Positions 4,086 to 58,736 of a DNA stretch of 64,000 bases are shown here, in pieces. Position 1 is the first letter of the stretch, and every line of letters starts with the position of its first letter. The notes beneath the pieces are model-generated. The model was not told the origin of the DNA and did no database searches. It was given only the letters and a program-made list of their open reading frames with translations. Origin of the DNA: Sessilibacter corallicola (GTDB lineage: Bacteria > Pseudomonadota > Gammaproteobacteria > Pseudomonadales > Cellvibrionaceae); NCBI RefSeq assembly GCF_021290925.1, contig NZ_JAJSLX010000001.1, positions 1,550,001 through 1,614,000 of the forward strand. The letters are read 5' to 3'. Both the position numbers and the translations under genes were made by a program.

Positions 4086-4093
4086 GGATTAAC

Positions 4094-6079
4094 GTGCGCC
4101 GATTTTTGTTAGCAGCGCTCCTACTTTGCGCGAGTTATGGAAACGCCCAAAGTACCGAGCCTGAGAAGCTGACTCTCAGCTTTAACGACGCAGACATTGT
4201 GGAAGTCATCCGTTTTGTTGCTGAACAGACCGATAAAACCGTGATCATCGATCCGCGGGTAAAAGGTAAGGTTCAGGTATTTACCAACGGTGAAGTTACT
4301 CGTGATCAAGCCTACGCGTTGTTGTTATCGATCTTAGAATTGCACGGTTTTACCGCCTATGAAAATGGCGATGTAGTCCGCGTTGTTCCCAACAAAGAAG
4401 TCCGTTCATCACCCATTCCGGTAATGAAAGACGTGCCATCTCAAGCCGGTGATGAATACATCACCGAAGTGGTAACGTTAAAGAATGTTTCGGCTGCGAA
4501 AATTTTGCCTGTGTTGCGCCCATTGGTTGCACAACACGCGCATATGGCGGCCTATGATCCCAGCAACTCCATCGTAATTTCTGATACCTATGCCAACATC
4601 ACGCGTGTTAAGCAAGTTATCTCGCAAATTGATGGCGCTGCTGTCGCACAAACTGAAATCATTCAATTAGAGTTTGCACCGGTTACCGAAGCCATTCGCA
4701 TGCTGCAGCAACTGCTCAGTGGTGACGCAGCCAATGACACCGGCACCTTAAAAATGATTGCCGATGTCCGAACCAACTCTATGTTATTGAGCGGCGACCA
4801 ACTTCAACGCACACGCGTTAAAGATCTTGTCGCCCGCATCGATCGTCCACAGGCACAAACCGGTAACGTGCGTGTTATTTATCTTGAATACGCCAACGCC
4901 ACAGAAGTTGCTCAAACCTTGCAACAACTTCTGCAAAACCTGCAACAAGGTGGCGGTGGCGGCGCTGAAGGCGGCTCCAATCCTACCAGCAGTGTTCGTC
5001 CTTCCGTCGAAGCTGACGAATCCACGAATGCGCTGTTGATTACCGCAGAAGGCGACACTCTTGATTCATTACTCCAAGTTGTTGAGCGTCTGGATATTCG
5101 CCGAGCCCAAGTGTTGGTTGAAGCGGTTATTGCAGAGCTTGAAGATGTTGACGGTAAAGATTTAGGTATTCAGTGGTTATTCGCCTCTGAAGACGGCGGC
5201 TTTGGCGCCAATTCCCTTGGCGACGGTGTTCTCGCAGGCGCAGGTTCCATCGCGCTTTCTGACGATGACGACGTTATCGAAGACTTAGCTGGCGCAATCG
5301 GAACCATCACAGGTACCACTTTTGGTATCGGTGATTTCGATGGTGACAAAGGTTTCCTCGCACTAGTGAACGCACTGAACGAGAAGACCAACTCCAACAT
5401 CCTTTCTACGCCGAGCGTACTGACAACCGACAACCACGAAGCCGAAATTTCAGTCGGTCAGGAAGTACCTTTCGTTACCGGTAGCTTCACCAGTACAGAA
5501 GGCAACGTGAACAACCCGTTCCAGACCATCGAGCGTCAAAACGTTGGTATTACCTTACGCGTCACACCTCAGATCAACGAAGGCGATAAAATCGTTCTCG
5601 ATATCGAACAAGAAGTATCAAGCTTGACCGGTGAAACCAGCGCTTCTGACGTAATCACCAACGAGCGCTCAATCACCACCCAAGTTCTCGCCAGCGACGG
5701 CCAAATCGTTGTTCTCGGCGGCTTGATGCGTGACAACGTTCAGACCTTCCAGTCTCGCGTTCCAGTACTTGGCAGCATCCCACTGGTGGGCCGATTGTTC
5801 CGCTCAAACAGCGATCGTGTGACCAAAACCAACTTGTTGGTATTCATTCGCGCGACGGTCATTCGCGACGACGAAACACTCACCGGCACAACCGCCGAGA
5901 AGTACCGATTCATTCGCGAACAACAGCTTAAAGCACGTCGCCAAAAAGGCTTGTCGCTTAAGAAAGATTTACTGCCTGTGGTTCCTGAGTGGCCAATCGC
6001 TGCAGATCAAGATCTTTCAGGCTACGAGACAATCGCCGACCAACTTGAAGCAGAACGCTTGAAGAAAGAAAAGAAATAA
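4094..6079 (+). CDS. gspD: Type II secretion secretin GspD
   Basis: Outer-membrane secretin forming the exit channel for folded exoproteins. The product is 661 aa from the chosen start. A signal peptide (RRFLLAALLLCASYGNA) is followed by N0 (LTLSFNDADIVEVIRFVAEQT), N1-N3 KH-like domains to about residue 320, with a Gly-rich loop near 285-295, and the secretin domain at about 330-590 with LSTPSVLTTDN, VGQEVPFVTG and VPVLGSIPLVGRLF. A short charged C-terminal tail could bind a pilotin. GTG 4082 overlaps the gspC stop but has no room for a ribosome site; GTG 4094 has GAGG six bases upstream and is preferred. Second gene of the operon. Confidence 0.96.
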   Translation: MRRFLLAALLLCASYGNAQSTEPEKLTLSFNDADIVEVIRFVAEQTDKTVIIDPRVKGKVQVFTNGEVTRDQAYALLLSILELHGFTAYENGDVVRVVPNKEVRSSPIPVMKDVPSQAGDEYITEVVTLKNVSAAKILPVLRPLVAQHAHMAAYDPSNSIVISDTYANITRVKQVISQIDGAAVAQTEIIQLEFAPVTEAIRMLQQLLSGDAANDTGTLKMIADVRTNSMLLSGDQLQRTRVKDLVARIDRPQAQTGNVRVIYLEYANATEVAQTLQQLLQNLQQGGGGGAEGGSNPTSSVRPSVEADESTNALLITAEGDTLDSLLQVVERLDIRRAQVLVEAVIAELEDVDGKDLGIQWLFASEDGGFGANSLGDGVLAGAGSIALSDDDDVIEDLAGAIGTITGTTFGIGDFDGDKGFLALVNALNEKTNSNILSTPSVLTTDNHEAEISVGQEVPFVTGSFTSTEGNVNNPFQTIERQNVGITLRVTPQINEGDKIVLDIEQEVSSLTGETSASDVITNERSITTQVLASDGQIVVLGGLMRDNVQTFQSRVPVLGSIPLVGRLFRSNSDRVTKTNLLVFIRATVIRDDETLTGTTAEKYRFIREQQLKARRQKGLSLKKDLLPVVPEWPIAADQDLSGYETIADQLEAERLKKEKK

Positions 6080-6096
6080 AGCTCCAGGACGCAGCT

Positions 6097-7644
6097 ATGG
6101 CAGAACAAGCCCTCGACAATGATGAGCAGGACCTCATAGACAACCAAGAGGCCCTTGACCAGGAAGCCGTGGACGACGAAGAGTCCACGCGCGCCTTACC
6201 GTTCCATTACGCCAGTAATCACGGTGTCATTTTAAAAGACGGTCAGATCTTTCATCGAGGCCGCTTGAGTCTGCCGCTCATACTGGAATTGCAGCGTCAT
6301 TTAGGAAGCGGCTTTATCACCGTACCGATCAATGACGATGAGTTTCAAAAACAGTTAAAAGAGATGTACCACGGCTCCAGCGGCTCCGCCCAACAGGCGG
6401 CCGATGAAGTTGTTGACGATCTCGGCAGCGACATTGATCTCGGCTCCCTTGCCGACGAGCTGAGCGACGACCAAGAACTGCTTTCAGGCAACGATGATGC
6501 CCCCGTTATTCGTTTGATTAACGCGGTATTGTCCCAAGCGGTTCGCGAAAAAGCCTCGGATATTCACATTGAGCCCTACGAAGACCGAGTTGCGGTTCGC
6601 TTCCGTGTCGACGGTGTCCTCAATGAAATGCTGTCACCGAAAGCGGTTCTTGCGCCACTTTTGGTGTCGCGTTTGAAAGTAATGGCCAAGCTCGATATCG
6701 CCGAGAAACGTCTGCCGCAAGATGGTCGTATTACTGTGAAGCTTGCCGGTCACGGTCTCGATATTCGTTTATCAACCATACCGTCCGCGCACGGCGAACG
6801 TGTGGTACTGCGTCTGCTCGACACCACGGCCGGTCAGCTGTCGCTCAAGCAAATCAACATGCCCGCTCAGGTTCATAACGGCTTTTCCCAAGCCTTACAC
6901 AAACCTCACGGCATCATTCTGGTTACCGGTCCAACCGGTTCCGGTAAAACCACAACGCTTTACGCCGGTCTTTCCCACATCAATGATCGCAGTCGTAACA
7001 TTTTAACGATTGAAGATCCGGTGGAATACGTTCTGCCCGGCATCGGTCAGACTCAGGTTAACAGCAAAATCGATATGACCTTTGCCCGCGGCCTGCGCGC
7101 AATTCTTCGACAAGACCCGGATGTGGTAATGATCGGTGAGATTCGTGACCGTGAGACTGCTTCAATCGCAATCGAGGCGAGTTTGACTGGTCACTTGGTA
7201 ATGTCGACGCTGCACACCAATACCGCCATTGGTGCGGTAACTCGTTTGCAAGATATGGGCATTGAGCCATTTTTGCTCTCATCCAGTATTACTGCGGTGA
7301 TGTCACAACGTTTGGTGCGCTTACTGTGTAACCACTGTAAGACCCCGGATCAACCAACACCTGCCGAACAAGCCCATTTGAATCTGAAAGAATCTGACGT
7401 TGTCTATCGAGCCAACGGTTGTGAGCACTGCCACAACCAGGGTTATCGCGGACGAAGTGCGATTTACGAGTGGATTGAAATTGACCAAAAAATGCGCCAG
7501 CTCATTCACGAAGACGCAGGCGAGCAGGTCATGGAAGCCCAGGCCAGAAGCCAAGCAGATTCCATTACCGAACACGGTCGCAAACGCGTTCTTGCCGGCG
7601 ACACCAGCATTGAAGAAGTCATGCGCGTAACGACAGCAATTTAA
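6097..7644 (+). CDS. gspE: Type II secretion ATPase GspE
   Basis: Cytosolic hexameric ATPase that powers pseudopilus assembly through GspL and GspF. The 515-aa protein has an acidic N-terminal extension (about 1-35), an N1E/N2E domain, and the ATPase core with Walker A GPTGSGKTT near residues 278-286. Asp box (TIEDPVEY), Walker B (DPDVVMIGEIRD) and His box (TGHLVMSTLHTN) follow in order. The zinc module CNHC ... CEHC at about 410-447 is intact. ATG 6097 has AGGAC upstream. It lies 17 bp after gspD and 2 bp before gspF. Confidence 0.97.
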   Translation: MAEQALDNDEQDLIDNQEALDQEAVDDEESTRALPFHYASNHGVILKDGQIFHRGRLSLPLILELQRHLGSGFITVPINDDEFQKQLKEMYHGSSGSAQQAADEVVDDLGSDIDLGSLADELSDDQELLSGNDDAPVIRLINAVLSQAVREKASDIHIEPYEDRVAVRFRVDGVLNEMLSPKAVLAPLLVSRLKVMAKLDIAEKRLPQDGRITVKLAGHGLDIRLSTIPSAHGERVVLRLLDTTAGQLSLKQINMPAQVHNGFSQALHKPHGIILVTGPTGSGKTTTLYAGLSHINDRSRNILTIEDPVEYVLPGIGQTQVNSKIDMTFARGLRAILRQDPDVVMIGEIRDRETASIAIEASLTGHLVMSTLHTNTAIGAVTRLQDMGIEPFLLSSSITAVMSQRLVRLLCNHCKTPDQPTPAEQAHLNLKESDVVYRANGCEHCHNQGYRGRSAIYEWIEIDQKMRQLIHEDAGEQVMEAQARSQADSITEHGRKRVLAGDTSIEEVMRVTTAI

Positions 7645-7646
7645 TC

Positions 7647-8891
7647 ATGGCCGCATTTACTTACACAGCATTAAACAATACCGGTAAAACGGTAAAAGGC
7701 ATTATTGAAGGCGACAGCGAACGCCAGGTTCGCTCGCAACTGCGCAGCCAACAACTCAAGCCATTATCAGTAACAGCTGCTGGCGATAAAAAAGTAAAAG
7801 CCACCAACGGCAAAAATAAATCCTCATCAACTTCAGCTTTCGGTGGTCTTTTTGCGCCCAAATTAAGCACAAAAGAACGAGCACTCGTAACTCGTCAACT
7901 GGCATCGTTATTAATGTCGGGACTGCCGCTAGATGAATCTTTAAACACCGCCGCCAAACAGGCCACCAAAGAATCCACGCAGTCCATTTTGCTGAGCATT
8001 CGTGGCCGAGTTCTCGAAGGCCATTCACTGGCGCAAGCGTTCAGCGAACACCCAAAAAGCTTCGACAATATGTACCGCTCCATGGTGAAAGCGGGGGAAT
8101 CCTCCGGTTATTTGGGCCAGGTACTTGAGCAATTAGCGGAATACATCGAGCGCAGCCAATACACAGCTAGCAAGCTAAAAATGGCCATGATTTACCCAAT
8201 GGTATTGCTCGCGGTCAGTATTTCGGTTGTGGCAATTTTGATGGTCTTTGTCGTACCCGATCTGGTCGGCATGTTCCAGCGCAGCGAACGAGAATTACCT
8301 TTTATCACCAACCTGTTAATTGGCACGAGTAACGTACTAAGCAGCTACGGCCATTTTATTTTGATCGGCTTAGTAGCTTTGGTAGTGGGCTTTAAATACC
8401 TGCTGAAAAACGAAGATCGATTGCGCGCGTGGCACCGGTTTTTACTGCGTGTGCCCCTGATTAAAGACGTGATCTTACTGGCCGAAAGTTCTCGATTTGC
8501 CGGAACACTGAGTCTGTTATCAGAAAGTGGGGTTCCTTTACTGCAAGGGCTTCGCATTGCCACCCAAGTGTTGGGCAATACCGAATTACGCCACGCCTGT
8601 AGCGACGTTACTCGCTCAGTGCAAGAAGGTGGCGCTCTCAACAAAGCGTTGAAACAAGCCGGTTGGTTTCCACCTTTGCTGGTACAAATGACCGCCAGTG
8701 GTGAAGCCAACGGCACCTTGGATAAACAGTTAAAACACTGTGCGTCCAACCAAGAGCGCGAGCTGGAAATGACCTTGACGACGGTACTGGGTATTTTTGA
8801 GCCTGCCATCGTTGTCATTATGGGTGGCTCAATCGCATTTATTATGATGGCAATTTTGCTGCCAATCTTTGAACTCAATCAGCTGGTGTAG
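7647..8891 (+). CDS. gspF: Type II secretion inner-membrane platform protein GspF
   Basis: Polytopic inner-membrane protein at the base of the pseudopilus that transmits GspE movement. The 414-aa product has an N-terminal cytosolic part (FTYTALNNTGKTVKGIIEGD), two T2SSF helical bundles (about 75-195 and 275-395), and membrane segments near 180-205, 230-250 and 380-405. Typical blocks are LASLLMSGLPLDESL and SLLSESGVPLLQGL, the repeated core of the two bundles. It begins 2 bp after gspE, which suggests translational coupling. Length and architecture are normal. Confidence 0.96.
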   Translation: MAAFTYTALNNTGKTVKGIIEGDSERQVRSQLRSQQLKPLSVTAAGDKKVKATNGKNKSSSTSAFGGLFAPKLSTKERALVTRQLASLLMSGLPLDESLNTAAKQATKESTQSILLSIRGRVLEGHSLAQAFSEHPKSFDNMYRSMVKAGESSGYLGQVLEQLAEYIERSQYTASKLKMAMIYPMVLLAVSISVVAILMVFVVPDLVGMFQRSERELPFITNLLIGTSNVLSSYGHFILIGLVALVVGFKYLLKNEDRLRAWHRFLLRVPLIKDVILLAESSRFAGTLSLLSESGVPLLQGLRIATQVLGNTELRHACSDVTRSVQEGGALNKALKQAGWFPPLLVQMTASGEANGTLDKQLKHCASNQERELEMTLTTVLGIFEPAIVVIMGGSIAFIMMAILLPIFELNQLV

Positions 8892-8951
8892 CTCTTAGAA
8901 ATTACCGATTTACTTCAATTTTTAACGACTTAAGCAAGATGGAATAACCTT

Positions 8952-9389
8952 ATGGACAGACGATCAAAACACTCGGGCTTCTCGCTCATCGAAATTATGG
9001 TGGTGTTGGTCATTATGGGGCTACTCGTAGGTATCGTTGCGCCAAATGTTTTGAAAAACGTCGATGATGCTAATGTTAAAACTGTCTACGCAGATTTTCG
9101 CAGTATCGAGACATCACTAAAGCTGTACCGCCTAGATAACTTTGTTTACCCATCTACCGAACAAGGTTTGTCAGCGCTAGTTGAAAAAACCGCTCTAGAG
9201 CCAGTACCGCGCAAATTCCCGCAAAGCGGCTACTTGGACGATTTACCAACCGATCCTTGGCAGCGTGAATACGTATACATCAGCCCAGGAGAAAGTCACG
9301 ACTACGACCTAATCTCTTACGGCGCCGATGGCGTTCCAGGTGGTGAAGGTCAAAACGCCGACTTAAACGTTTGGAACAAGCCTGAATAA
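8952..9389 (+). CDS. gspG: Major pseudopilin GspG
   Basis: Main subunit of the type II secretion pseudopilus. The 145-aa precursor has a short positive leader ending HSG, then the type III signal FSLIEIMVVLVIMGLL with Glu at +5 for prepilin peptidase processing. The mature globular domain carries the usual YRLDN, YPSTEQGL and LPTDPWQ blocks and a C-terminal YDLISYGADGVPGGEG loop of the calcium-binding type. Prepilin peptidase is not encoded in this window. The 60-bp gap after gspF is larger than at most other junctions here. Confidence 0.97.
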   Translation: MDRRSKHSGFSLIEIMVVLVIMGLLVGIVAPNVLKNVDDANVKTVYADFRSIETSLKLYRLDNFVYPSTEQGLSALVEKTALEPVPRKFPQSGYLDDLPTDPWQREYVYISPGESHDYDLISYGADGVPGGEGQNADLNVWNKPE

Positions 9390-9391
9390 AC

Positions 9392-10006
9392 GTGAATGCG
9401 ATATCAACAAATCAACATCGACAACACCAGCGAGGATTCACCTTAATTGAAATCCTCGCGGTGATGTTTGTTATTGCCGTATTTGCTGGTATCGCCGCCG
9501 TTAATATCGTCGACTATGATCCCGCTGGAGAATTGCAGGATTACAGCGAAGATTTCTTCGCACAGCTCTCTTTTGGTGCCGATGAAGCCTTATTTACCGG
9601 CGAGCACGTCGGGTTAGTCCCGCAACTGAAAGAGCGGACCAACACCAGCCAGCTCAAAGATTTATGGGAATTGGCTTGGTATCGTTGGCGCGACGACGAG
9701 TGGCAAGAAATCACTGATATCGAACCGCTTTCACCACCCGATGTGATTCAGTTTGTTATTGAACTGGACGAAGAACCACTGGATTTGTGGGAATGGTTAG
9801 AATTTGAAGAACCAACCCCTGCGCTGATTTTTTACGGCGGTGGCGAAGCCTTAGAAGCCACCATTATTTTAGAAATTGATCCCGCCCGCGCCGACGGCAT
9901 TGATTTTGAGTCTCGTACTCAGCACATGGACATTAACGGTTTAGGCCAAGTTATTTGGCGTGAACGCAAAGAAAGAGAAGATCGCGAAGCGGAATTTGGG
10001 AGATAA
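9392..10006 (+). CDS. gspH: Minor pseudopilin GspH
   Basis: Minor pseudopilin of the type II secretion pseudopilus. The prepilin motif RGFTLIEILAVMFVIAVFAG starts near residue 15, with the conserved Glu at +5. The globular domain is acidic (LELDEEPLDLWEWLEFEEP). GTG at 9392, 2 bp after the gspG stop, gives the best N-terminus; the absence of a clear ribosome site suggests translation coupled to gspG. At 204 aa it is close to the family's usual length. A charged C-terminal tail (ERKEREDREAEF) precedes gspI. Confidence 0.9.
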   Translation: MNAISTNQHRQHQRGFTLIEILAVMFVIAVFAGIAAVNIVDYDPAGELQDYSEDFFAQLSFGADEALFTGEHVGLVPQLKERTNTSQLKDLWELAWYRWRDDEWQEITDIEPLSPPDVIQFVIELDEEPLDLWEWLEFEEPTPALIFYGGGEALEATIILEIDPARADGIDFESRTQHMDINGLGQVIWRERKEREDREAEFGR

Positions 10007-10010
10007 TGCC

Positions 10011-10448
10011 ATGGCTCACTCTATCTCTAAACACCGCAATCCAACACGCACTTTTCAGGGCGCCAAAATAGGCACAAAGCAGTCTGGCTTTACCATTATT
10101 GAAGTCATTATTGCGTTAACCATTGTCGCTGTTGCTTTGCCAGCTCTGCTCAATTTGGTGTTAATCCAAACCGATAACACGCATCATCTCAGAGAGCGAA
10201 CCCTGGCCGAATACGTCGCCAGAAATCAGCTCAACACCCAACGCATTAACTACCAACTGACCGAGCGAATTCTAAACGGACGCCAAACCGGCACCGAAGA
10301 ATTCAGCGGAATAGAGTGGCACTGGATTGCAGAGTCGGAAGAGACCGCAATCGACGAAATGCGCCGCATCAATATTTCCGTAGCGAGAACCCCACAAGAC
10401 GCCAGAGACAACCCGAGCGCCCATTTATCAGGGTTTATCTATGAATAA
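10011..10448 (+). CDS. gspI: Minor pseudopilin GspI
   Basis: Minor pseudopilin that nucleates the pseudopilus tip with GspJ and GspK. The prepilin motif QSGFTIIEVIIALTIVAVAL is present, followed by the typical RTLAEYVARNQL helix and a small globular domain with EFSGIEWHW. The frame is open back to GTG 9960 inside gspH, but ATG 10011 has GGGAG eight bases upstream and gives a leader of reasonable length, so 145 aa is preferred. Its end overlaps the gspJ start by 8 bp. Confidence 0.93.
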   Translation: MAHSISKHRNPTRTFQGAKIGTKQSGFTIIEVIIALTIVAVALPALLNLVLIQTDNTHHLRERTLAEYVARNQLNTQRINYQLTERILNGRQTGTEEFSGIEWHWIAESEETAIDEMRRINISVARTPQDARDNPSAHLSGFIYE

Positions 10449-11175
10449 ACCAGCTCGTCATCTCTCGGTAGGTCAAACACCTCAAGCGCAAGGCTTCTCA
10501 TTGATAGAAGTGTTGGTTGCGCTCGCTATTACGGCAACGATTCTGACGCTCGCTTATCAATCGCTGACCTCGGCCATTGACGGTTCTGAAAAAACTCAAG
10601 CGGCGATGGATGAAATAGATACCTTCGCACGGGCAATGCACATTTTAGAATCTGACTTTAAACACGTGGTTGCTCGCGACAGCGTCTTATTTAACGTCGA
10701 AAGCCCCAACGGTTTTGGGACCGACATCGACAACGAATACCTATTGAAATTTAACCGCGCGGGCCGACCCAATCCGGCCATGTTAAAACGCAGCGCGTTA
10801 TTGCGAGTCGGCTATCGCTGGAGCGATAACATTCTCTACCGCGACACTTGGCCCGAGGCAGAAGAAGCAGTTATCGATGACGCACGCACGCTGGAACTTT
10901 TGCGCGATGTAACAGATTTTGAAATCCTCTACTTACCCTCTGACGCCGACGACAGAGACGGCCCTTGGGTGGACAGCTGGCCGGATCGCGGCACCTCAGG
11001 CATGCCCGTCGCCGTTGAAGTAACGCTCGAAACCGAAGAATTCGGTCGCATGAAACGATTATTTTTACTGAGCACCGAAGCCAATATTACCCGCCGTTCG
11101 AGTGACGACGATGACGGCAATGGTGATGGAAACAACGGTAATGGTAATAACGGAGGCAACGGCAATGGCGGCTAA
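10441..11175 (+). CDS. gspJ: Minor pseudopilin GspJ with Asn/Gly/Asp-rich tail
   Basis: Pseudopilus tip component in complex with GspI and GspK. The prepilin motif QGFSLIEVLVALAITATILT is near residue 18, followed by FARAMHILESDFKHVVARD and the family's beta-rich globular domain to about residue 215. The C-terminal 25 residues are low-complexity Asp/Asn/Gly (11102-11172), which is not part of the normal fold. That DNA also carries the ribosome binding site of gspK. ATG 10441 overlaps gspI. At 244 aa it is slightly long because of the tail. Confidence 0.94.
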   Translation: MNKPARHLSVGQTPQAQGFSLIEVLVALAITATILTLAYQSLTSAIDGSEKTQAAMDEIDTFARAMHILESDFKHVVARDSVLFNVESPNGFGTDIDNEYLLKFNRAGRPNPAMLKRSALLRVGYRWSDNILYRDTWPEAEEAVIDDARTLELLRDVTDFEILYLPSDADDRDGPWVDSWPDRGTSGMPVAVEVTLETEEFGRMKRLFLLSTEANITRRSSDDDDGNGDGNNGNGNNGGNGNGG

Positions 11176-12199
11176 GATCTCCACACATCGTCGCCAACAA
11201 TCGGGCGTTGCACTCATTACTACACTGATTATTGTCGGCCTAGTGACTGCGCTGTCGATCGGTATTGCTGTATCCCACGAACGTACATTACTCAAAGCCG
11301 AGAGCCGATTTCACGGAAACCAAGCCTTGGAGTATCTTTTGGGCGCAGAAGAACTTGCCCGCTTTGTGCTTGATGAAGATTACAAGGAAGACCAGGAAGA
11401 CCAAGAAGAAATAGACTCACTCGATGAAGCGTGGAATCAAGAGCAACAATTCCCGCTAGATGAAGGATCGCTGCTCGGCCAAATTTCCGACGCGCAAGCA
11501 AAATTTGATATCAACCGTCTGGCACGACAAGTTGCCACAGAAGATTCTGACAGAACCAGTCCGCAAGCGTATACCGCCGACCAGCGCCGCTTCATTCGAC
11601 TGCTGCAAATTCTCGATGAAGAAGAGCCTATGTCGCTGACGGATGCACAAAGTGTGTTGGCACCCATCATTGATTGGCTGGATGAAGACGACACACCGTT
11701 TGGATTTGAAGGCGCGGAATCCCTCGATTATCAGCGCGAGGAACCGCCGGTGCGACCAACTAACGGGCCGATCAAAAGCATTACCGAGTTGCGGCTAGTA
11801 AAATCGATTACTCCAGAGCTCTACGATTTATTGGAGCCACACATTACCGCGCTGCCCGGTGGCGGTACCGGAATGAATTTAAATACCGCAAGCACAACGT
11901 TACTGCGGACTATTAATATAGAAAATGATTTTAGACCACTGTCGAAAGCGGACGCAGAACAAATACAATTAGATCGGGGAAGTGGCTACACCGTGTTTTC
12001 AGATTTTCTCGACGGTTCTGTGCCCACCACACTCAGACCTCAAGGCGACATCTCCGATGAAGGGCTGACTGTGTCCTCTGAATATTTTATTTTGTCCGCA
12101 AAAGTAGAGGTCGGTCGACAAAGGCGAGCCCAAACCAGTTTACTGTTTAGGAACGGCGAAGACACCGAAGTGATTCAACGCAGTGATTTTGGCTTGTAA
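11165..12199 (+). CDS. gspK: Minor pseudopilin GspK
   Basis: Largest minor pseudopilin, capping the pseudopilus tip. The product is 344 aa with the leader QSGVALITTLIIVGLVTALS, lacking Glu at +5 as is usual for GspK. ERTLLKAESRFHGNQALEYLLGAEELA follows, then the helical insertion typical of the family, including FDINRLA and LAPIIDWLDEDDTP, and MNLNTAS near residue 236. ATG 11165 has a strong GGAGG eight bases upstream, inside the gspJ tail; in-frame codons farther upstream would precede the leader. It overlaps gspJ by 11 bp and is followed by a 162-bp gap. Confidence 0.94.
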   Translation: MAAKISTHRRQQSGVALITTLIIVGLVTALSIGIAVSHERTLLKAESRFHGNQALEYLLGAEELARFVLDEDYKEDQEDQEEIDSLDEAWNQEQQFPLDEGSLLGQISDAQAKFDINRLARQVATEDSDRTSPQAYTADQRRFIRLLQILDEEEPMSLTDAQSVLAPIIDWLDEDDTPFGFEGAESLDYQREEPPVRPTNGPIKSITELRLVKSITPELYDLLEPHITALPGGGTGMNLNTASTTLLRTINIENDFRPLSKADAEQIQLDRGSGYTVFSDFLDGSVPTTLRPQGDISDEGLTVSSEYFILSAKVEVGRQRRAQTSLLFRNGEDTEVIQRSDFGL

Positions 12200-12225
12200 A
12201 TTAAGTTGCAAAATTATTGTGTTAA

Positions 12226-12294
12226 CCAGAGCTTGGCAACGCAGTTATGTTTATCTTAAGTCTCAATGGCATGGCAGATAACACCAAACTCTGG
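12226..12294. repeat. Inverted repeat in the gspK-gspL gap
   Basis: Arms CCAGAGCTTGG (12226-12236) and CCAAACTCTGG (12284-12294) pair over 11 positions, with one G-U in RNA, around a 47-base loop. The gap (12200-12361) is much larger than any other junction in the gsp operon and has no ORF. It could hold an internal promoter or an RNA element that sets the ratio of gspC-K to gspL-N. The function is inference only. Confidence 0.35.
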
Positions 12295-12361
12295 ATAAAG
12301 AAGTGAAATTAAGAACAAAGGCCTGTATGAAACGTCGGAAATTATCCGCGCACGGAAGTAT

Positions 12362-13606
12362 ATGAACAGATTAATCGTAATTTACGACAGCTTCTTACCC
12401 GACCAAAACCCGTTGGAACCAACGCTGACCTGGCGTTTGGCCCAAGACGGCGACTGGATGGGGCCTGAAACTCGCGGCACCGTCGAGCAACTTGCCGACG
12501 CCCAAGTCGAAGCGGGTGCAGAAATTTGGCTCACTCTGACCACACCGGAGGTGGTCATGGTAAACCAAGAGTTCTCCGCAAAAGAAAAGCGCCATCTCAC
12601 CAATTTGATGCCTTACGAACTGGAAGACCAGTTGTTAGGCAACGTTGAAGATTTTCATTTTGCCTACGGCCACATCGTAGAAGATCAGGTGACCGTCGCT
12701 TACACCCCCATCGATTGGCTCACCATACTGATCGATTCCATCGAAAAAGCGGGCGTAGAAATCACTACCTGTTTGCCGCTGTTTTTGCTTCTACCTTGGG
12801 AAGCGAATCAATGGTCGATCCGCTGGTTGGGTGACGACAACCTGGCCGAAATTCACTACGGAAAAGACCTGGGCTTCTTAATCGAATTAGATCTGCTCAA
12901 AGACGCCCTGGAATCACTCAGCGCCACACTCGAAGAAAAGCATCGCCCGAAAGAAATTAAATTATTCGGGCAAACCTTCGAAGACTTGCAAGTGCTGCAA
13001 AATCACCTTCCAGAAAGCTTGCAAGAAATGGCGACCAGCCAGCAGTGGGATCAGTGGTTAAGCCTCAGCCTCGAAACCCTGCCACCGTTTAACCTGCGCC
13101 AGCAATCGCTGGGTCGTTCGCTGCCGGTCAATCGCTGGTGGGCGCAATGGCGACCTGCTGCTATTGCGGCGGGAATTGCAGCGGCGCTGTACTTAGGCGG
13201 CAACTGGATGCAAACCCATCAGTTAAAGCAAGAGCAACAAGCGCTGATCGCAGAAACCGAACGCACCTACCGCACAGTAATGCCACGTGGTGCATTGGCT
13301 GATCCCGAGTTGCAGTTGCGCAATCAGTTGTCGAAATTCAAATCCAATTCTTCCGGTTCTGGCCCGAGCGTAGTTGGTATGCTCGCGCAGATCACGCCGA
13401 TGATCACTCAAGCGGACGAAATCTCGGTTAGAAACATGAACTTTATTGAAGGCGACATGCGCCTGAACATCGAGTCGCCGAGCTTCCAACAAATTGATCG
13501 CTTACGCGCCCAACTCGAAGATCAAAAATTGGCGGCCGAGCTTCTGGGAACCTCGTCTGTTCCCAACGGAGTTCAGGCGCGTTTAAGAATTAGGAGTAAC
13601 CCATGA
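12362..13606 (+). CDS. gspL: Type II secretion protein GspL
   Basis: Bitopic inner-membrane protein whose cytosolic actin-like part binds GspE and whose periplasmic part binds GspM. In 414 aa the cytosolic domain spans about 1-255 (LTLTTPEVVMVNQEFSAKEK, LMPYELEDQLL, and PLFLLLPWE near 140). A membrane segment (AAIAAGIAAALYLGGNWM) lies near 263-282 and a ferredoxin-like periplasmic domain near 320-410. ATG 12362 has GGAAG just upstream. It overlaps gspM by 4 bp. Confidence 0.93.
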   Translation: MNRLIVIYDSFLPDQNPLEPTLTWRLAQDGDWMGPETRGTVEQLADAQVEAGAEIWLTLTTPEVVMVNQEFSAKEKRHLTNLMPYELEDQLLGNVEDFHFAYGHIVEDQVTVAYTPIDWLTILIDSIEKAGVEITTCLPLFLLLPWEANQWSIRWLGDDNLAEIHYGKDLGFLIELDLLKDALESLSATLEEKHRPKEIKLFGQTFEDLQVLQNHLPESLQEMATSQQWDQWLSLSLETLPPFNLRQQSLGRSLPVNRWWAQWRPAAIAAGIAAALYLGGNWMQTHQLKQEQQALIAETERTYRTVMPRGALADPELQLRNQLSKFKSNSSGSGPSVVGMLAQITPMITQADEISVRNMNFIEGDMRLNIESPSFQQIDRLRAQLEDQKLAAELLGTSSVPNGVQARLRIRSNP

Positions 13607-48157: not shown

Positions 48158-48221
48158 CTCTGGAGTTTGGTCGTTGGTGAGTTTCGCTTAGTATAAACTC
48201 ACCAAGATTCCAGAGATACTT
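48152..48221. promoter_or_regulatory. Nested hairpin covering the small membrane protein start
   Basis: Outer arms ATCTCTGGA (48156-48164) / TCCAGAGAT (48209-48217) and inner arms GGTGAGTTT (48176-48184) / AAACTCACC (48195-48203) pair perfectly around a 10-base loop, with an internal loop of 11 and 5 bases. In minus-strand RNA the start codon (48155-48157) and its AGAG ribosome-site-like sequence fall in the outer arm. No T-tract follows, so it is not a classic terminator. Confidence 0.6.
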
Positions 48222-48238
48222 ACGATCTTCAATGGCGC

Positions 48239-49863: not shown

Positions 49864-50344
49864 TGATACTCCCTTAACCGAAAATGAGAATAAAATAACG
49901 AGTAAGAATAGCCTAACGCTTTGGGTGGTTATCATTATATATTCTGTATTCTATTTAAAATCTTGGACATCATCCGATGGCTTTTGATGGCTTTTGATGG
50001 CTTTGCAGACGCATCGTTGATTTTGTATGGCCTTACAAATCTTTAAAAGCATTTTTACAGACATTAACAAGCTCTGCCACTCTCAATAATTACTATATTG
50101 ATGCTCATACAATTCTTTACCCAGATTTTTGCGCTGGTTCCTAATTAAAAAGCGAGCGACTGCAGAGAAAAGAGAGGAAGGGAAGGGAAGATTTTTACAA
50201 TACAGATTGAGAGGTTATCACATTGAATTCAGCGGCCCACAGAGCAGGCCGCCATTCATTAGCGAATAAGTAATTAACCAACCAGTGATTAACGGGTAAG
50301 ATAACTTTTAAACACTTAAGAATAAATTAAACGCAATAAAAGCG
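49864..50344. other. Intergenic region with short tandem repeat
   Basis: About 480 bp between the 310-aa gene and the DUF6795-like gene (both minus). The promoter of the lipase group should lie at 49870-50100. A 10-bp unit GATGGCTTTT is repeated three times at 49976-50005. Otherwise AT-rich with no ORF. Confidence 0.5.
49976..50005. repeat. 10-bp tandem repeat, three copies
   Basis: GATGGCTTTT at 49976-49985 and 49986-49995, then GATGGCTTTG at 49996-50005, about 115-140 bp upstream of the DUF6795-like start. Copy-number change here could alter promoter spacing. Confidence 0.85.
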
Positions 50345-51277: not shown

Positions 51278-51724
51278 AGTTCATACTCTCTTTAACGTGG
51301 TTTATTAAATGGATACATTACTGAGGGTTGCTAAGCTGCAACCAAGATTTACAGCGATTTAGTCTTTTTAGAAATTACCCATTGCAAGATTTTTATTTTG
51401 CGAGCAACTTGCCACTGTGCAAAAAATAAATTGATCAAACATTCCAATGAGCGACCTTTAAAATTCTAATTAAAAACGAATCAATGAATAAAAATAACAA
51501 GCTATTTTTGTTGATTAACGCTAATTACTGTTAATACGGTTTTTATTATCAGGAGGTTCTAAAGTTTCTGTATAAAAAAACTTGCGGCGCTGTTTGATTG
51601 TTTAGTGTAGAGAATCGAATTTAAATCGCAGATGAATGTGATCCCACTTTTCATATTTTTACCGGCATAAAAAAACCGGGCATCGCTCTCGCAATGCCCG
51701 GTTTTTAAAAAAGTGAAATACTTT
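51278..51724. other. Intergenic region between the 310-aa gene and the cohesin gene
   Basis: About 450 bp, AT-rich, no ORF. It holds the promoter of the 310-aa gene (near 51280-51400) and the terminator of the cohesin/dockerin operon at 51671-51706. Confidence 0.5.
51671..51706 (-). terminator. Rho-independent terminator of the dockerin-cohesin operon
   Basis: Thirteen-bp perfect stem AAAAACCGGGCAT (51671-51683) / ATGCCCGGTTTTT (51694-51706), loop of 10 bases. It has T-runs on both strands, and lies 18 bp after the cohesin gene stop. Confidence 0.92.
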
Positions 51725-52207
51725 TTATTGGACGGTTAAGGTCGCACTGAATCCGGCGGTGGTCGGGAATCGAGTGAGGTTAGGATCAGCACTGTCTCGC
51801 ACATTCGATTGAATCTGAGTGGTTTGACCTGCGGTACCTAACGCTTGGAAAACCAAGTTAACCAAAGGCACCGAACCTTGCGGTTCGGTAAGCGAGGTTG
51901 AATTCACGACAACAATGGCGAAGTTACCTGGGTTGTTTTCATGAAAGCTGAAAACACCGGTAAAGTCGTCGCCTGTTGGGCTGGTCACATCAACCAGCTC
52001 AACAACAGCAGCGTCGAAAGTCACTTCGAACTCAACACCCGCGAAGACATTCGGGCCGGAGAAGAACAGGGTAGGTACGGTTACCTGATCCCCGCTCAGC
52101 ACGGTTATGTCGGTGCTATCAAAAAATACATCACCTTCAAATTGCGCCGTCGCTTGTTGCCAAGAGAGGAGCAGTGTCATTACCAAAAGTAGTCGACTTA
52201 ATTTCAT
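51725..52207 (-). CDS. Secreted cohesin-domain protein
   Basis: A 160-aa exported protein: signal peptide 1-21 (LSRLLLVMTLLLSWQQATA), then one cohesin-type domain at about 30-160. Cohesin features: VLSGDQVTVPTLFFSGPNVF, GVEFEVTFDAAVVELVDVTS, GNFAIVVVNSTSL and VPLVNLVFQALGTAGQTTQI. ATG 52207 has GAGGAG seven bases upstream; TTG 52222 would overlap the neighbour. It starts 4 bp after the stop of the giant dockerin lipoprotein gene, so the two are co-transcribed and probably coupled. Cohesins bind dockerins, which makes a direct partnership likely, though not proven. It has no lipobox or membrane anchor. Confidence 0.87.
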   Translation of the reverse strand: MKLSRLLLVMTLLLSWQQATAQFEGDVFFDSTDITVLSGDQVTVPTLFFSGPNVFAGVEFEVTFDAAVVELVDVTSPTGDDFTGVFSFHENNPGNFAIVVVNSTSLTEPQGSVPLVNLVFQALGTAGQTTQIQSNVRDSADPNLTRFPTTAGFSATLTVQ

Positions 52208-52211
52208 GTTT

Positions 52212-55200
52212 TTACTCCTCAACCTCGATAGTTAGATCAATCCCTTCGCCGATCGCGACACCGTTATCAAAGGCTTGCACGCCACCGTTAAAGGTGTCAC
52301 GCAACTGCGCAATCGGATCATCGTTATTTAGCGTTACACGTCTTGCCAACTCAACGTCTCTCTCCGCTGCACTCAAACCGGCAGGGAAGAAGTTGTTGAT
52401 GAAGATCAGAGGTGATCCGCCGTTGCCGTTCTCACCGCGAGTAATCACGAACAAGTCGTTTGGTCCTCTCGGTAAATTGAGCGTGACATCTAATGTTGGG
52501 TTTTCTGGCACGGTAGTGGTCGCTACAGACTCACCGTTCACTTGCAGTTCGAATACGTCAGAAGCATCGACAGCACCGGTACTGTTGAAGAACGCACCTT
52601 GGTCACCGAAGGTCAAACTGATCGATACAATCGCACAGGCAATGTCGATGGTTTTGTTCTGCTCGGCTCCACGAACCTGAGCTTGAGCGCTGATGGCGGC
52701 AAATTGCTGGAACTGCATATCATCAGGATCAAAACACGCGAAGTTAGCCAGATCGCTGGAAACAAGGCTTAGGGTGCCACCGGTTGCCGCGTCTGGACCA
52801 AACACTTGGGTTGCATCCAATGGCAGCGGTTGATCGATGAACATCATTAAGAAGTTCATTCCGAAGCTTGATACAACACCGGCGATTTCACTGCCAGTCA
52901 GCATGCGGCCAGAAGTCTGCTCAATGTCGTCGGACAAACGGGCCAACAAGTCTTGATCGAGTAAATCCAACAGATCAACCAACGCACTTGAGGAAGTTCT
53001 TCCAGACAGTAGGTTGCGAATAATCTGATCTTCTAGGATTTGCAGCAACTGCTGATCACCCGTGTTATCCAACGCTTGGGCATCAACCACGTTTCTTAAG
53101 TTGTTGGCACCGCTGATTTCTAGCGTAGAGGTGATGTCAGAGGTCACGCCTACTGGCAATTCATCAGGAGAAGCGTCCAGCTCTAGCGCGAATTGGATGT
53201 CACCGAACAAGCTAGAAACCGTTGATGCAAAGGCCAGCTCTGAGGTCACAACCGGACACTGAGCAATCCAATCCTGGACTGCATCTGCAGGTAAGCTCTG
53301 AACCAACACCGATGACTCCAGTGCGTCACAGCTTAAGCCGATCAATGTGGTTGCTACTCGGCCGATATCCGCAGAATCTTGGATGTTACACAATTCCGGA
53401 ACAACGGATTCACAGACTTCCAACAAACCGCTTGGGTTAGGAATGACACCGGAAGTAATGGTGTTATCCAAAACGGTCAATCGATCTCTGAAACCTTCCA
53501 AGCCATTCGCATAAAGCGTCTGCTGAAGCACGGCGGCGATTTGGCTGTCAGGGTTGTCATTGAGGATACCTCGGAACACATCCAATGCCGTGGCTAGATT
53601 CATTCGACCGACGGTTAAGGAGGAGGTCAACACGTCCATCTCTTCAACGGTTGCCGTCGCATTCAACAACAAGTCATCGAGAGAAATCTGTTGCAGCTCG
53701 TAAGCGCGTTCGAATTCATCTAAGAACGAAAGAATGTCTCCAGTTGCGTCTGCTGGGAATACAGGCAGGGCACCCAGTTCAACGGAGAAGTTATCCACAC
53801 TTGGAACACCGCCACGGACAGACGTTACTTCTACATCAGCGGTCACACCGGATAACGCAGGGTCTGCCGGAATCGCGAAGTTAACGTAACCTTGCGCGAA
53901 CTGGCTGGTCGACTGCACGGGAATACCGTCGACAGTAATCGACAAGCTATCAATAGGCGCGATCAGGTTCGGTGAAATCACCAGCGATGAACCACCCGGT
54001 AAATTCGTTGGCGGCGAGATGAATCGAGCCACAAATTCGTCCGCAGCAACGATATTGGCGATTAACTCAACGTCGGTCTGATTGAACTGGCCGTTAACAT
54101 CAACGTCGGAGGCAACGATTTCAGTGCGATCCAACGGTTCACGCAAACCACCCAAACGCTGGGCCGCCAGTACGGCGTCGTCGAGGGTTATATCGCCGCT
54201 GTTGTTCACATCGCCCAACAGTGGGAAGTTAAAGTCTTCAGGGAATGGGTTACTTGGATCTGCAACGTTGATAATCACTTCGCTGCTGATCACTGGGTCC
54301 ATACCAACAAACACTTGCGCGGTTACCGTAAAGCGGCCAGGCGCGGCAAAGCTAAAGTTGGTCGATGCACCTTCAAACATTTGACCGTCGCTGGTGGTAA
54401 ACACAATGCGATCAAACACAGCGTTGGCCGGAGCTACGGTTGCAGTAAAGGGCAGTGATTGACCCGCAGTGGCAAGAGTCGTCGGAACATCGATGGCGAC
54501 AAATTCTGCCATCTGTTCAGTAACAACCACGGTAATTTCTGAGGTTGTGATGGTTTGAGTGCCCGAGAAAACCTGCGCGGTAATGGTGAATTCACCCAAG
54601 CTATCAAAGCTGATGGTAGCAGGCGAGCCGTTGATTCTTTGGCCGTCGCTCGAGATAAACAACACGTCATCAACCACAGCGTCTGCTGGCATAACGTTCG
54701 CCGTTAAGGTCAACTCTTCGCCAATCACGGCTTGCAGTTCAGAACTGGTTACTGTGGCCGTGATTGCTGAGGCAACCGACACATTCACAGGCGTTGAGGT
54801 AATCTCTTCATCGCCGACAAATACCGTAGCCGTTACCGTGAAATCACCAGCGTTTGCGAAGCTAATGTTCGCAGGCGAACCCATAATGGTTTGGCCATCG
54901 CTGGTGGTAATCTCGATACGATCAAACGGCGCACCGGCAGGTGTCGTGGTTGCTGTGAAGGTGATGGATTCACCGACAAGCACATCGGTATTGGTAGCCG
55001 TCAAGGCAACGGTTGGCGCAGTAACCGCGACAGGGAAACTGCCAGCGTTAATAACTTCGTTACCAATGAACACCTGACCGGTGACGGTAAAGTTACCCAC
55101 CTCTGGGAAAGTGACATCAACCGGTGAGCCTTCAAACTCTTGCACAACGCCGTCGCCATCGGTGTAGCTGAATAGAATGCGATCAGCGATGGTGCCTGCC

Positions 55201-58200
55201 GGTTGTAAATCCACCGAGAAGCTCACTGGCTCATTCACCAGAGCACTGCTCGCACCCGCCGTTGGATTGACCGTTGGTAGGCTTACAGTAATGGCAATAG
55301 GATCACTTGGGGTGGTTTCACCGTCGACCGTGACTTCACCGACAATGGTAAAGTTGCCGTCGTTAGGAATAGTCAGTGTGGCCGGAGAACCCGAAACACG
55401 AGCGACTTCGTTATCGCCACCGTCCAACAAAACAAACTCAATGGCGTCTGCCACGGTACCCGCAGGTTGAACTGTTGCCGTTAAGGCCAGATCGTCACCC
55501 ACGGTTGGTGTGGTCGAACTGCTGGTGATCGAAACCGACACAGGCTCTTCGATAGTCACGGTTGTGACTTCGCTGACAATCTCATCGCCCACCAATAATT
55601 CAGTAGTGACCGTGAAAGTGCCTGCTTCTGGGAACGAAATCTCCGCCGGACTGCCTTCGAAGGTTCTTGCAGGAGTTTCGTTGGTGACAAAGCGAATCAA
55701 ATCCACCGGAGCATCGGCTGGTGTCACATTAGCAGTGAAGGTGATCGGATCACCAATAACAGCTTCGGTTGCCGTGGTATTCACAACAATGGTCGGCGCT
55801 GAAATGGTTACCGGGAATGAACCGGCAGGAATCACTTCATCACCAATGAACACCTGGCCGGTCACGGTAAAGTCACCCGCTTCTGGGAAGGTAATGTCAG
55901 CCGGGGAACCTTCAACCTCTTGCACAACGCCGTCACCGTCGGTGTAGCTAAAGACGATGCGATCAGCAACCGTGCCTGCCGGTTGTAAATCTACCGAGAA
56001 CGTCACTGGCTCGTTAACCAGCGCCGTATTGGCACCGGCGGTTGGAGTTACCGTCGGTAAGGTTGAAGTAATCGCAATTGGATCACTTGAGGTAGTTTCG
56101 TCGCCAACGGTAACTTCACCGACAATCGTGAAGTTGCCATCGTTTGGAATCGTGAGAGTCGCTGGAGAACCCGAAACACGATCCACTTCGTTACCGCCGT
56201 CGTCCAACAAGACAAATTCAATCGCATCGGCAACGGTGCCAGCAGGCTGAACGTCAGCGGTTAAGGTTAAATCATCGCCAACGGTTGGTGCGGTCGAGTT
56301 ACTGGTGACCGAAACAGACACCGGCTCTTCGATAGTCACGGTAGTGACTTCGCTGACAATCTCATCGCCCACCAATAATTCGGTGGTAACCGTAAAGGTG
56401 CCTGCTTCTGGGAAAGAAATCTCTGCAGGGCTACCTTCGAAGGTTCTTGCAGGGGATTCATTAGTGACAAAGCGAATCAAATCCACCGGTGCGTTCGCAG
56501 GCGTCACGTTGGTGGTGAAGGTAATTGGCTCACCGATTAATGCTTCTGTTGCCGTGGTATCGACAACAATGGTTGGTGCATTAATGGTTACTGGGAAATC
56601 GCCCAACTCGATGACTTCTTCGCCGATAAAGACTTGACCGGTAACTGTAAAGTCACCCGCTTCTGGGAAGGTGATATCCACAGGCGAGCCATCAAACTCT
56701 TGCACAACGCCGTCACCGTCGATGTAACTGAAGACGATGCGATCGGCTTCTGTTCCTGCAGGCTGCAAGTCTACTGAGAAGGTCACAGGTTCGTTAACCA
56801 ACGCTTCGTTTGCACCAACAGTTGGAGTAACGGTAGGTAGAGTCGAGGTAAACGCGATAGGATCGCTGGAGGTCACTTCACCTTCAACAGTCACTTCAAC
56901 TACTGCCGTGAAATCACCTGCGTTCAACGCGTCATTAGTAACAACAAAGTTGCCGTCATCTGGGTTGAAGAATGTATCCGCAGGACCGGAAATACGCTCA
57001 ACTTCATTGCCGCCGTCGTCAAAGATAATAACTTCAATCAATTCGGCAACCGCACCTTCGGGCTGAACGTCAACCGTTAAGGTTACTTCATCGCCTACAG
57101 TTGGTGTGGTTGTGCTGCTCGTGATAACAAGCGAAACCGGCTCTTCAATAGTCACCGTGGTTTCTTCGCTGATAACTTCATCGCCAACCACCAATTCAGT
57201 AGTGACGGTGAATTCACCCGCTTCTGGGAAGCTGATCTCAGCAGGCGAACCTTCAATGGTTCGACCATCACTGGTCACAAAGCGAATGACATCAACCGGT
57301 GCATCAACCGGATCAACATTCGCGGTAAAGGTAATTGGTTCGTCAATGAGCGCTTCGCTCGCCGTGGTATCGACTGTAATCGTTGGCGCGTTAACGGTGA
57401 CCGGGAAGCTGCCGACTTCAATCACTTCGTCGCCAACAAATACTTGCGCGGTTACCGTAAAGTCACCCGATGAAGGGAAATTAATATCGGCTGGAGAACC
57501 TTCAAACTCTCGACCATCGCTGGTGGTAAATAAAATACGATCAGCAACCGTGCCTTCTGGTTGTAAATCAACCGTGAACGGCGAGGGTTCATTAACGAGA
57601 ATATCTCGCGCCGTTAAATCGGCAGCGATTTCAGGAAGAGCGACATCAAAATTAAAGGTGTCGCTTTCAGTGGTTTCTCCGTCTACCGTTACTCGAGCGG
57701 TAACTGAGAAACTGCCTTCATTGGGGAAAGAAATTTCTGCAGAAGGACCTGGAATAACTCTGCCATCACTGGTAACAAATTCTACCGAATCAGCCACGGT
57801 TCCTTCGGGTAATACAGTTGCGGTAAATGTCGTTGGGTTGCCAACAACACCTTCTGTTCCAGAGCTAACCAGATCAACCGTCACTGGCGTTTCAGCGGTT
57901 ACGCTAAATTCGTCTGTCGCAACAACTTCACCACCAGAAAATACTTGCGCGGTTACCGTAAAGTCGCCGTCGTTTGGAAAATTAAAAACGGCGGGTGAGC
58001 CTTCAACGGTACGACCGTCACTGGTTGTAAAAACAATGCGATCAACGTCGTCGGAACTTGGCAAAATGCTGGCGGTAAAAGTAATGTCTTCGCCAGTATT
58101 CACTTCTGGTCCAGGGCCAATAATATTAATAGAAATCGGCTCGTCTACAGTAATGACAGACTGTGACGTTGCGATAACATTATTGCCTGAGAAAACACGC

Positions 58201-58736
58201 GCGGTAACGGTAAAGTTACCGGCCTGTACAAAACTCAATTGCGCCGGAGAACCAACAACCGTTTGACCTTCGTTAGTACTGAATTCGATTCGATCAAATT
58301 GCACACTTGCCGGTGAAACGCTGGCGGAAAATGTAAATACATCGCCAACTGAACCGCTCGTTGCTGAACTGACGACGCTTACGTTTGCAGGCGCAGGTGG
58401 ATTTGTTGGATCACCATCGCCATCACCGGAACCGTCGTCGCCGTTACCGGTATCACCACCGGAATTATCGTCGCCGCCGGAATTATCGCCACCTGTGTCG
58501 CCGCCGGAATTATCGCCACCTGTGTCGCCGCCGGTATCACCACCAGTGTCACCACCGCCGGAGTTGTCGCCACCGGAATCTCCCCCGGAATTATTACCGC
58601 CGCCTGTGGTCGGAGTTCCACCACTTGAAGAACCGCCAGAATCTGACGAGTTGTCGCCGGAACCACCGCTGCCGCCACTTGAGCACGCAGCCAGTAGGCA
58701 TATTAAGCCCACCAGTAGGAAACGATTGATTTTCAT
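52212..58736 (-). CDS. Giant lipoprotein: 16 Ig-like repeats plus dockerin
   Basis: A 2,174-aa lipoprotein. Residues 1-18 hold the signal and lipobox LAAC (Cys18). Residues about 19-118 are a Gly/Asp/Ser/Asn linker. Residues about 119-1490 hold 16 Ig/PKD-like repeats of about 85 aa, each with FTVTAQVFVGDE-like strands. Residues about 1505-1565 are a dockerin with two calcium loops (DVNNSGDITLDD and DVDVNGQFNQTD). Residues about 1565-2174 are mixed alpha/beta, with a long helical part and a final beta domain, not recognised. ATG 58736 has AAGGA six bases upstream. It likely stands on the outer-membrane surface and binds the co-encoded cohesin protein. Repeat units fall in threes, a sign of recent duplication. 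Confidence 0.9.
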   Translation of the reverse strand: MKINRFLLVGLICLLAACSSGGSGGSGDNSSDSGGSSSGGTPTTGGGNNSGGDSGGDNSGGGDTGGDTGGDTGGDNSGGDTGGDNSGGDDNSGGDTGNGDDGSGDGDGDPTNPPAPANVSVVSSATSGSVGDVFTFSASVSPASVQFDRIEFSTNEGQTVVGSPAQLSFVQAGNFTVTARVFSGNNVIATSQSVITVDEPISINIIGPGPEVNTGEDITFTASILPSSDDVDRIVFTTSDGRTVEGSPAVFNFPNDGDFTVTAQVFSGGEVVATDEFSVTAETPVTVDLVSSGTEGVVGNPTTFTATVLPEGTVADSVEFVTSDGRVIPGPSAEISFPNEGSFSVTARVTVDGETTESDTFNFDVALPEIAADLTARDILVNEPSPFTVDLQPEGTVADRILFTTSDGREFEGSPADINFPSSGDFTVTAQVFVGDEVIEVGSFPVTVNAPTITVDTTASEALIDEPITFTANVDPVDAPVDVIRFVTSDGRTIEGSPAEISFPEAGEFTVTTELVVGDEVISEETTVTIEEPVSLVITSSTTTPTVGDEVTLTVDVQPEGAVAELIEVIIFDDGGNEVERISGPADTFFNPDDGNFVVTNDALNAGDFTAVVEVTVEGEVTSSDPIAFTSTLPTVTPTVGANEALVNEPVTFSVDLQPAGTEADRIVFSYIDGDGVVQEFDGSPVDITFPEAGDFTVTGQVFIGEEVIELGDFPVTINAPTIVVDTTATEALIGEPITFTTNVTPANAPVDLIRFVTNESPARTFEGSPAEISFPEAGTFTVTTELLVGDEIVSEVTTVTIEEPVSVSVTSNSTAPTVGDDLTLTADVQPAGTVADAIEFVLLDDGGNEVDRVSGSPATLTIPNDGNFTIVGEVTVGDETTSSDPIAITSTLPTVTPTAGANTALVNEPVTFSVDLQPAGTVADRIVFSYTDGDGVVQEVEGSPADITFPEAGDFTVTGQVFIGDEVIPAGSFPVTISAPTIVVNTTATEAVIGDPITFTANVTPADAPVDLIRFVTNETPARTFEGSPAEISFPEAGTFTVTTELLVGDEIVSEVTTVTIEEPVSVSITSSSTTPTVGDDLALTATVQPAGTVADAIEFVLLDGGDNEVARVSGSPATLTIPNDGNFTIVGEVTVDGETTPSDPIAITVSLPTVNPTAGASSALVNEPVSFSVDLQPAGTIADRILFSYTDGDGVVQEFEGSPVDVTFPEVGNFTVTGQVFIGNEVINAGSFPVAVTAPTVALTATNTDVLVGESITFTATTTPAGAPFDRIEITTSDGQTIMGSPANISFANAGDFTVTATVFVGDEEITSTPVNVSVASAITATVTSSELQAVIGEELTLTANVMPADAVVDDVLFISSDGQRINGSPATISFDSLGEFTITAQVFSGTQTITTSEITVVVTEQMAEFVAIDVPTTLATAGQSLPFTATVAPANAVFDRIVFTTSDGQMFEGASTNFSFAAPGRFTVTAQVFVGMDPVISSEVIINVADPSNPFPEDFNFPLLGDVNNSGDITLDDAVLAAQRLGGLREPLDRTEIVASDVDVNGQFNQTDVELIANIVAADEFVARFISPPTNLPGGSSLVISPNLIAPIDSLSITVDGIPVQSTSQFAQGYVNFAIPADPALSGVTADVEVTSVRGGVPSVDNFSVELGALPVFPADATGDILSFLDEFERAYELQQISLDDLLLNATATVEEMDVLTSSLTVGRMNLATALDVFRGILNDNPDSQIAAVLQQTLYANGLEGFRDRLTVLDNTITSGVIPNPSGLLEVCESVVPELCNIQDSADIGRVATTLIGLSCDALESSVLVQSLPADAVQDWIAQCPVVTSELAFASTVSSLFGDIQFALELDASPDELPVGVTSDITSTLEISGANNLRNVVDAQALDNTGDQQLLQILEDQIIRNLLSGRTSSSALVDLLDLLDQDLLARLSDDIEQTSGRMLTGSEIAGVVSSFGMNFLMMFIDQPLPLDATQVFGPDAATGGTLSLVSSDLANFACFDPDDMQFQQFAAISAQAQVRGAEQNKTIDIACAIVSISLTFGDQGAFFNSTGAVDASDVFELQVNGESVATTTVPENPTLDVTLNLPRGPNDLFVITRGENGNGGSPLIFINNFFPAGLSAAERDVELARRVTLNNDDPIAQLRDTFNGGVQAFDNGVAIGEGIDLTIEVEE
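54040..54216 (-). other. Dockerin-type segment in the giant lipoprotein
   Basis: Two F-hand loops about 25 residues apart: GDVNNSGDITLDDAVLAAQR and, after a short link, ASDVDVNGQFNQTDVELIAN. Asp/Asn positions 1, 3, 5 and 12 of each calcium loop are acidic or polar as expected. Confidence 0.85.
54275..58382 (-). repeat. Sixteen ~85-aa Ig-like repeat units with ~786-bp higher-order period
   Basis: Sixteen related coding units of about 250 bp. Units 7-9 and 10-12 match as a block, and unit 13 restarts the same order (ALVNEP in plus-strand positions near 55285, 56063 and 56848), giving a period near 786 bp (about 262 codons). Units 8 and 11 are nearly identical in protein. This points to recent duplication of three units at a time. 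Confidence 0.8.

Follow-up and report, generated by a model that had tools for sequence, protein, structure and literature searches.

A secreted single-cohesin protein encoded directly after a giant dockerin lipoprotein in Sessilibacter corallicola, outside a cellulosome

We analysed a stretch of 64,000 nucleotides from the genome of Sessilibacter corallicola (referred to as the window), in which two neighbouring genes encode a giant predicted lipoprotein containing a dockerin and a small secreted protein containing a cohesin (Table 1). Both genes are on the reverse strand and the cohesin gene follows the lipoprotein gene after a gap of 4 bp; the coordinates, lengths and 4-bp spacing given in the original prediction were all correct when checked against the sequence. 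The open reading frame listing also contains an alternative TTG start for the cohesin gene at 52222, but the ATG was preferred because the sister species (the sole other genome of the host genus) agrees with it. A likely ribosome-binding site for the cohesin gene, AGGAG, lies within the 3′ end of the lipoprotein gene. As an intrinsic terminator is found right after the cohesin gene, the two genes look like, and probably form, one two-gene transcript.

Table 1 Features of the locus, in window positions.
Feature	Position	Strand	Details
Type II secretion genes	3054..13606	+	gspC, D, E, F, G and L identified; possible exporter of both proteins
Intrinsic terminator past cohesin gene	51671..51706	-	16-pair stem, loop of 4, T run; -27.5 kcal/mol, z -5.9
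Cohesin gene	51725..52207	-	160 aa; ATG at 52207, stop 51727-51725
Cohesin domain	51803..52096	-	PF00963, aa 38-135
Giant lipoprotein gene	52212..58736	-	2,174 aa
C-terminal region of lipoprotein	52215..54050	-	~600 aa, six conserved cysteines; found in host genus only
Dockerin	54051..54218	-	aa ~1507-1561; two Ca-binding-type loops, DVNNSGDITLDD and DVDVNGQFNQTD
Ig/PKD-like repeats	54267..58385	-	~16 repeats of 83-88 aa each (Pfam, sequence); array of sister species not collinear
Low-complexity linker	58386..58682	-	~100 aa, Gly/Ser/Asp/Asn/Thr (sequence)
Lipoprotein signal peptide	58683..58736	-	lipobox LLAAC, Ser at +2 (sequence); same in sister species

The type II secretion system encoded in the same window could export both the lipoprotein and the cohesin, a link that we infer. 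Elsewhere in the window, at 46991-49935, the gene for a PoNi-type immunity protein (PF08929) is close to two genes that overlap by 4 bp and encode a class 3 lipase and a DUF6795 protein; together they are possibly an effector-immunity cluster. A protein of 304 aa at 62258-63172 has a single weak match, to Pesticin (lysozyme-like), which is under the cut-off.

The lipobox LLAAC-S is present in both species, and the lipoprotein may be located at the outer membrane and exposed at the cell surface. Its dockerin scored 27.2 bits against PF00404 (cut-off 22.9) as an isolated segment and 20.3 bits within the whole lipoprotein. The best sequence relatives of this dockerin in the PDB were dockerins; the top match was a chain named “serine protease” (8x39), in which the alignment shows a dockerin-like part. 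In its two duplicated loops, residues 1, 3, 5 and 12 were scored as acidic or amide calcium ligands; residue 5 is S in one loop and N in the other. The lipobox, the PF00404 match of the isolated segment and the PDB relatives together support the original description of a 2,174-aa lipoprotein with a two-loop dockerin. The loop type is conserved in the sister species (DLNGDGQIDLVD and NIDLDADFDLVD), where the dockerin scored 15.5 bits, under the PF00404 cut-off of 22.9, and the window's dockerin was missed by a profile built from the other dockerins of the host family without the host genus. On these two grounds we consider it to be a divergent dockerin.

The C-terminal region of the lipoprotein had no relatives among 144 host-family genomes beyond the two of the host genus, among 391 host-order genomes, in the contigs of GTDB r220 (searched with two short motifs), or by sequence in Pfam, PHROGs or the PDB (the dockerin part aside). 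An AlphaFold model of the dockerin and C-terminal region had a mean pLDDT of 39.8 and consisted of strands, helices and again strands, all at low confidence. Domain searches found no carbohydrate-active domain in the lipoprotein or in the cohesin protein, as had been proposed.

The cohesin protein consists of a signal peptide, which is likely cleaved between ATA and Q, and a single cohesin domain, with no anchor and no further module seen by Pfam or in the sequence. Against PF00963 (cut-off 24.1) the cohesin scored 32 bits in the window and 32.3 bits in the sister species. The AlphaFold model of the protein (mean pLDDT of 69, moderate confidence) has the jelly-roll beta-sandwich fold of the cohesin family. 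When this model was compared to the PDB in a fold search, the first 31 matches were all cohesins, the best being a cohesin from Clostridium perfringens (2vo8, Z 14.5 over 129 residues); a cohesin from Archaeoglobus fulgidus (2xdh) had a Z of 11.1. Integrins, pilins and the CLIPPER adhesin domain ranked under the cohesins and were rejected as kin, having the beta-sandwich alone in common with the model. With cohesins heading the fold matches, the domain is not closer to another family, and the above-cut-off PF00963 score and the predicted fold agree that the small secreted protein is a single cohesin.

We searched the 4.7-Mb, 8-contig genome for further cohesins and dockerins. One cohesin and one dockerin were found by Pfam profiles, both at this locus, and family-tuned profiles gave the same count. 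It should be noted that the genome search used a prefilter, which missed a true cohesin in genome G060 that reached 44 bits when scored directly; a six-frame scan without the prefilter, covering ~2.0 Mb (~42% of the genome), again found this pair alone. The weak further dockerin matches were to one EF-hand protein and one PilY1-like protein and so were rejected. No scaffoldin with several cohesins was found in the genome (~42% of it scanned without the prefilter), which has one detected cohesin, and no dockerin was found on a carbohydrate-active enzyme, the sole detected dockerin belonging to the lipoprotein, in which the domain searches gave no match of that kind. The locus is not a cellulosome, in line with the original prediction, which had a single cohesin and a single dockerin on proteins without carbohydrate-active domains.

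In the sister species both genes are present and in place, although the lipoprotein homologue is 1,905 aa long and the array of Ig/PKD-like repeats has diverged between the two. The dockerin and C-terminal region are 52% identical and the cohesins 57%. The two genes overlap by 1 bp in the sister species, and the same M28 peptidase gene lies beside the pair, with an adenosine deaminase gene in between in the window. The architecture of a lipoprotein-dockerin with a free cohesin is known from these two genomes, both belonging to one genus.

We also examined cohesin genes across the host family. Pfam cohesin matches were found in 22 of the 144 genomes, 19 of which were kept after inspection; the three dropped matches were in a peroxiredoxin-reductase-like gene (n = 2) and an Ig-like repeat protein (n = 1). 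A dockerin gene was found directly beside the cohesin gene and on the same strand in 17 of the 19 genomes with a Pfam-detected cohesin, and it was the first of the two genes in 16 of these 17 pairs. The two genomes without a dockerin neighbour, G022 and G030, both have their cohesin gene near a contig end: in G022 the gene itself is cut by it, and in G030 only 0.6 kb of contig is left downstream of the cohesin, and no dockerin was found on the upstream side. A simple model gives a chance expectation of ~0.002-0.005 adjacent cases, but the species are related and so not independent; for this reason five architectures in five genera is a better count than 17 of 19. Six further pairs, including one in a sixth genus, were found via the neighbours of dockerin genes, which is a biased sample. 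Dockerin genes without a cohesin neighbour exist in the family, whereas cohesins without a dockerin neighbour scarcely do. Because the whole unit is conserved in a second species and adjacency of cohesins and dockerins is family-wide, a chance origin of the pair is excluded.

The partners of the cohesins are of five types: ExeM-like nucleases (LTD and Exo_endo_phos domains), PD40/CarboxypepD_reg proteins, IgGFc_binding-domain proteins, a giant of 4,661 aa and the lipoprotein of the window. A C-terminal membrane anchor, either PEP-CTERM-like or transmembrane, is present on the cohesins of four types, and there the dockerin partner, often an ExeM-like nuclease, is the cargo. In the window type the cohesin is free, without such a tail, and it is the dockerin protein that bears the lipid anchor. 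A strong exosortase match was found in most genomes of the PEP-CTERM type, a weak one in G000 and none in G001 or G060. G075 and G079 also had no match, but these genomes are incomplete, and G092 has an exosortase, yet the tail of its cohesin is a plain transmembrane one.

Several of the other loci are worthy of description. Within one genus, an ExeM-like nuclease ending in a dockerin (L009:4623-7796; also L067-L075, L077 and L094-L097) is followed within ~60 bp by the gene for a cohesin with a PEP-CTERM-type tail (VPEPSS, or the variant VPLPA in L075), an arrangement that looks like a nuclease plug in a cohesin socket sorted by exosortase. Two species (L066:3116-6606 and L084:4029-7605) encode a PD40/CarboxypepD_reg/dockerin protein of 926-942 aa together with a cohesin that ends in an ordinary transmembrane helix. 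A cohesin-like domain may be present in the larger protein too; it was seen by eye and Pfam did not confirm it. At L078:2753-5267 (G023), and also in G161 and G158, an IgGFc_binding-domain protein has a C-terminal dockerin under the Pfam cut-off and the next gene is a cohesin with a VPLPGS-type tail. The weak exosortase match of G000 (9e-9) is to an open frame of 550 aa (contig C1:654577-655350); long weak matches of this kind occur in several genomes of the host family and may represent a separate family branch.

Cohesins and dockerins outside cellulosomes are already known and have been catalogued for years (Peer et al. 2009 and others, as cited in PMC9012536). The A. fulgidus pair ORF2375/ORF2376, which according to PMC9705933 binds strongly and specifically (Voronov-Goldman 2011, Haimovitz 2008) and is non-cellulosomal, resembles the window's pair in having its cohesin and dockerin on ORFs that are consecutively numbered there. 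In contrast to that archaeal pair, the dockerin of the window is inside a giant Ig-array lipoprotein and the cohesin has no other module. The closest solved folds to the cohesin are the C. perfringens GH33 and GH84C cohesin modules (2vo8, 2jh2 and 2w1n; Z 13.3-14.5), which are likewise non-cellulosomal but are found within large glycoside hydrolases, whereas the cohesin of the window stands alone. As in the cohesin-PEP-CTERM/dockerin-ExeM pairs of the host family, there are two adjacent genes with the dockerin first and one domain each; however, in those pairs the anchor is on the cohesin and the dockerin is on a nuclease, while in the window it is the dockerin protein that carries the predicted anchor. 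The clostridial cellulosome uses the same two domain families, but our searches of the window's genome found neither a multi-cohesin scaffoldin nor dockerin-bearing carbohydrate-active enzymes. The window's pair is a new architecture among the known non-cellulosomal cohesin-dockerin pairs.

We think it fairly probable that the lipoprotein and the cohesin are subunits of one surface complex, a rearranged form of the family module in which the cohesin clamps the dockerin junction. The lipid would anchor the lipoprotein, and the flexible linker and the stalk of Ig-like repeats would hold the rest of it outward, displayed at the cell surface. The dockerin, presumably dependent on calcium and loaded with it, would be at the junction of the stalk and the C-terminal head, where the co-translated, secreted cohesin would bind it as a permanent subunit. 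The bound cohesin may clamp or stabilise this junction, although this is a guess, the models of both regions being of low or moderate confidence. The actual function would be carried by the genus-specific head. Compared to the rest of the family, the anchor would have shifted from the cohesin protein to the dockerin protein, if the direction of the rearrangement is read correctly. One-to-one pairing is favoured because a single cohesin and a single dockerin were detected in the genome, the two-gene unit is conserved and such pairs recur in the family. These same observations fit the self-contained docking pair which was originally suggested, with the binding of the two domains to each other and the surface location of the lipoprotein being the presumed parts of it.

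Other explanations can be given for the pair. The cohesin may be a leftover, of little use since the dockerin protein gained a lipid anchor and the cohesin lost its tail. This would fit with the cohesin bearing the anchor in the other pair types and with its partner being lipidated here, and also with the absence of a canonical exosortase (none in G001 and only the weak 550-aa match in G000). However, the cohesin is as well conserved across the two species as the C-terminal region of the lipoprotein, and in both its signal peptide is intact and its gene tightly coupled to that of the lipoprotein, so we regard this as unlikely. A secreted cohesin without an anchor, beside an adhesin-like lipoprotein, could also be released to link cells via the dockerins of their neighbours or to join several lipoproteins together; this is rather improbable, as a small cohesin has one known dockerin-binding face and the protein has no second binding part.

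It is an established role of cohesins in cellulosomes to act as receptors, and the cohesin could in the style of a minimal cellulosome receive other dockerin proteins. This seems the hardest to accept, given that our searches found no second dockerin in the genome (the weak matches being the EF-hand and PilY1-like proteins) and that the cohesin protein has neither an anchor of its own nor added modules. The original idea that the cohesin is a bridge to other dockerin proteins is not supported, as no second dockerin was found and the cohesin protein has no further domain. Finally, the two domains may not pair at all, the dockerin being a Ca-stabilised linker and the cohesin a beta-sandwich binding protein that has nothing to do with it. 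Both domains are divergent and beta-sandwich folds are common, but five or more genera have cohesin and dockerin genes side by side, the partner proteins being unrelated to one another, which makes this explanation very improbable.

The roles of cohesins and dockerins outside cellulosomes are little understood, and a genome in which a single cohesin and a single dockerin were detected, in adjacent genes and in a family whose pairs have unrelated cargoes and varying anchors, is a clean and testable case for one-to-one tethers. We see about even chances that cohesin-dockerin cassettes are a general and so far undescribed means by which members of the host family tether big exported proteins to the envelope, with the window being an inverted form. 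The cohesin would then be a socket, anchored via exosortase or a TM segment, with the dockerin as its plug, while in the window the lipid anchor would be on the side of the plug and the socket would be a free subunit. The cargo would be nucleases, PD40 and IgGFc_binding-domain proteins and giant adhesins; in the open literature, where many journals are missing, we found no paper which joins PEP-CTERM, cohesin and dockerin. If true, this reading would join PEP-CTERM/exosortase sorting to cohesin-dockerin docking.
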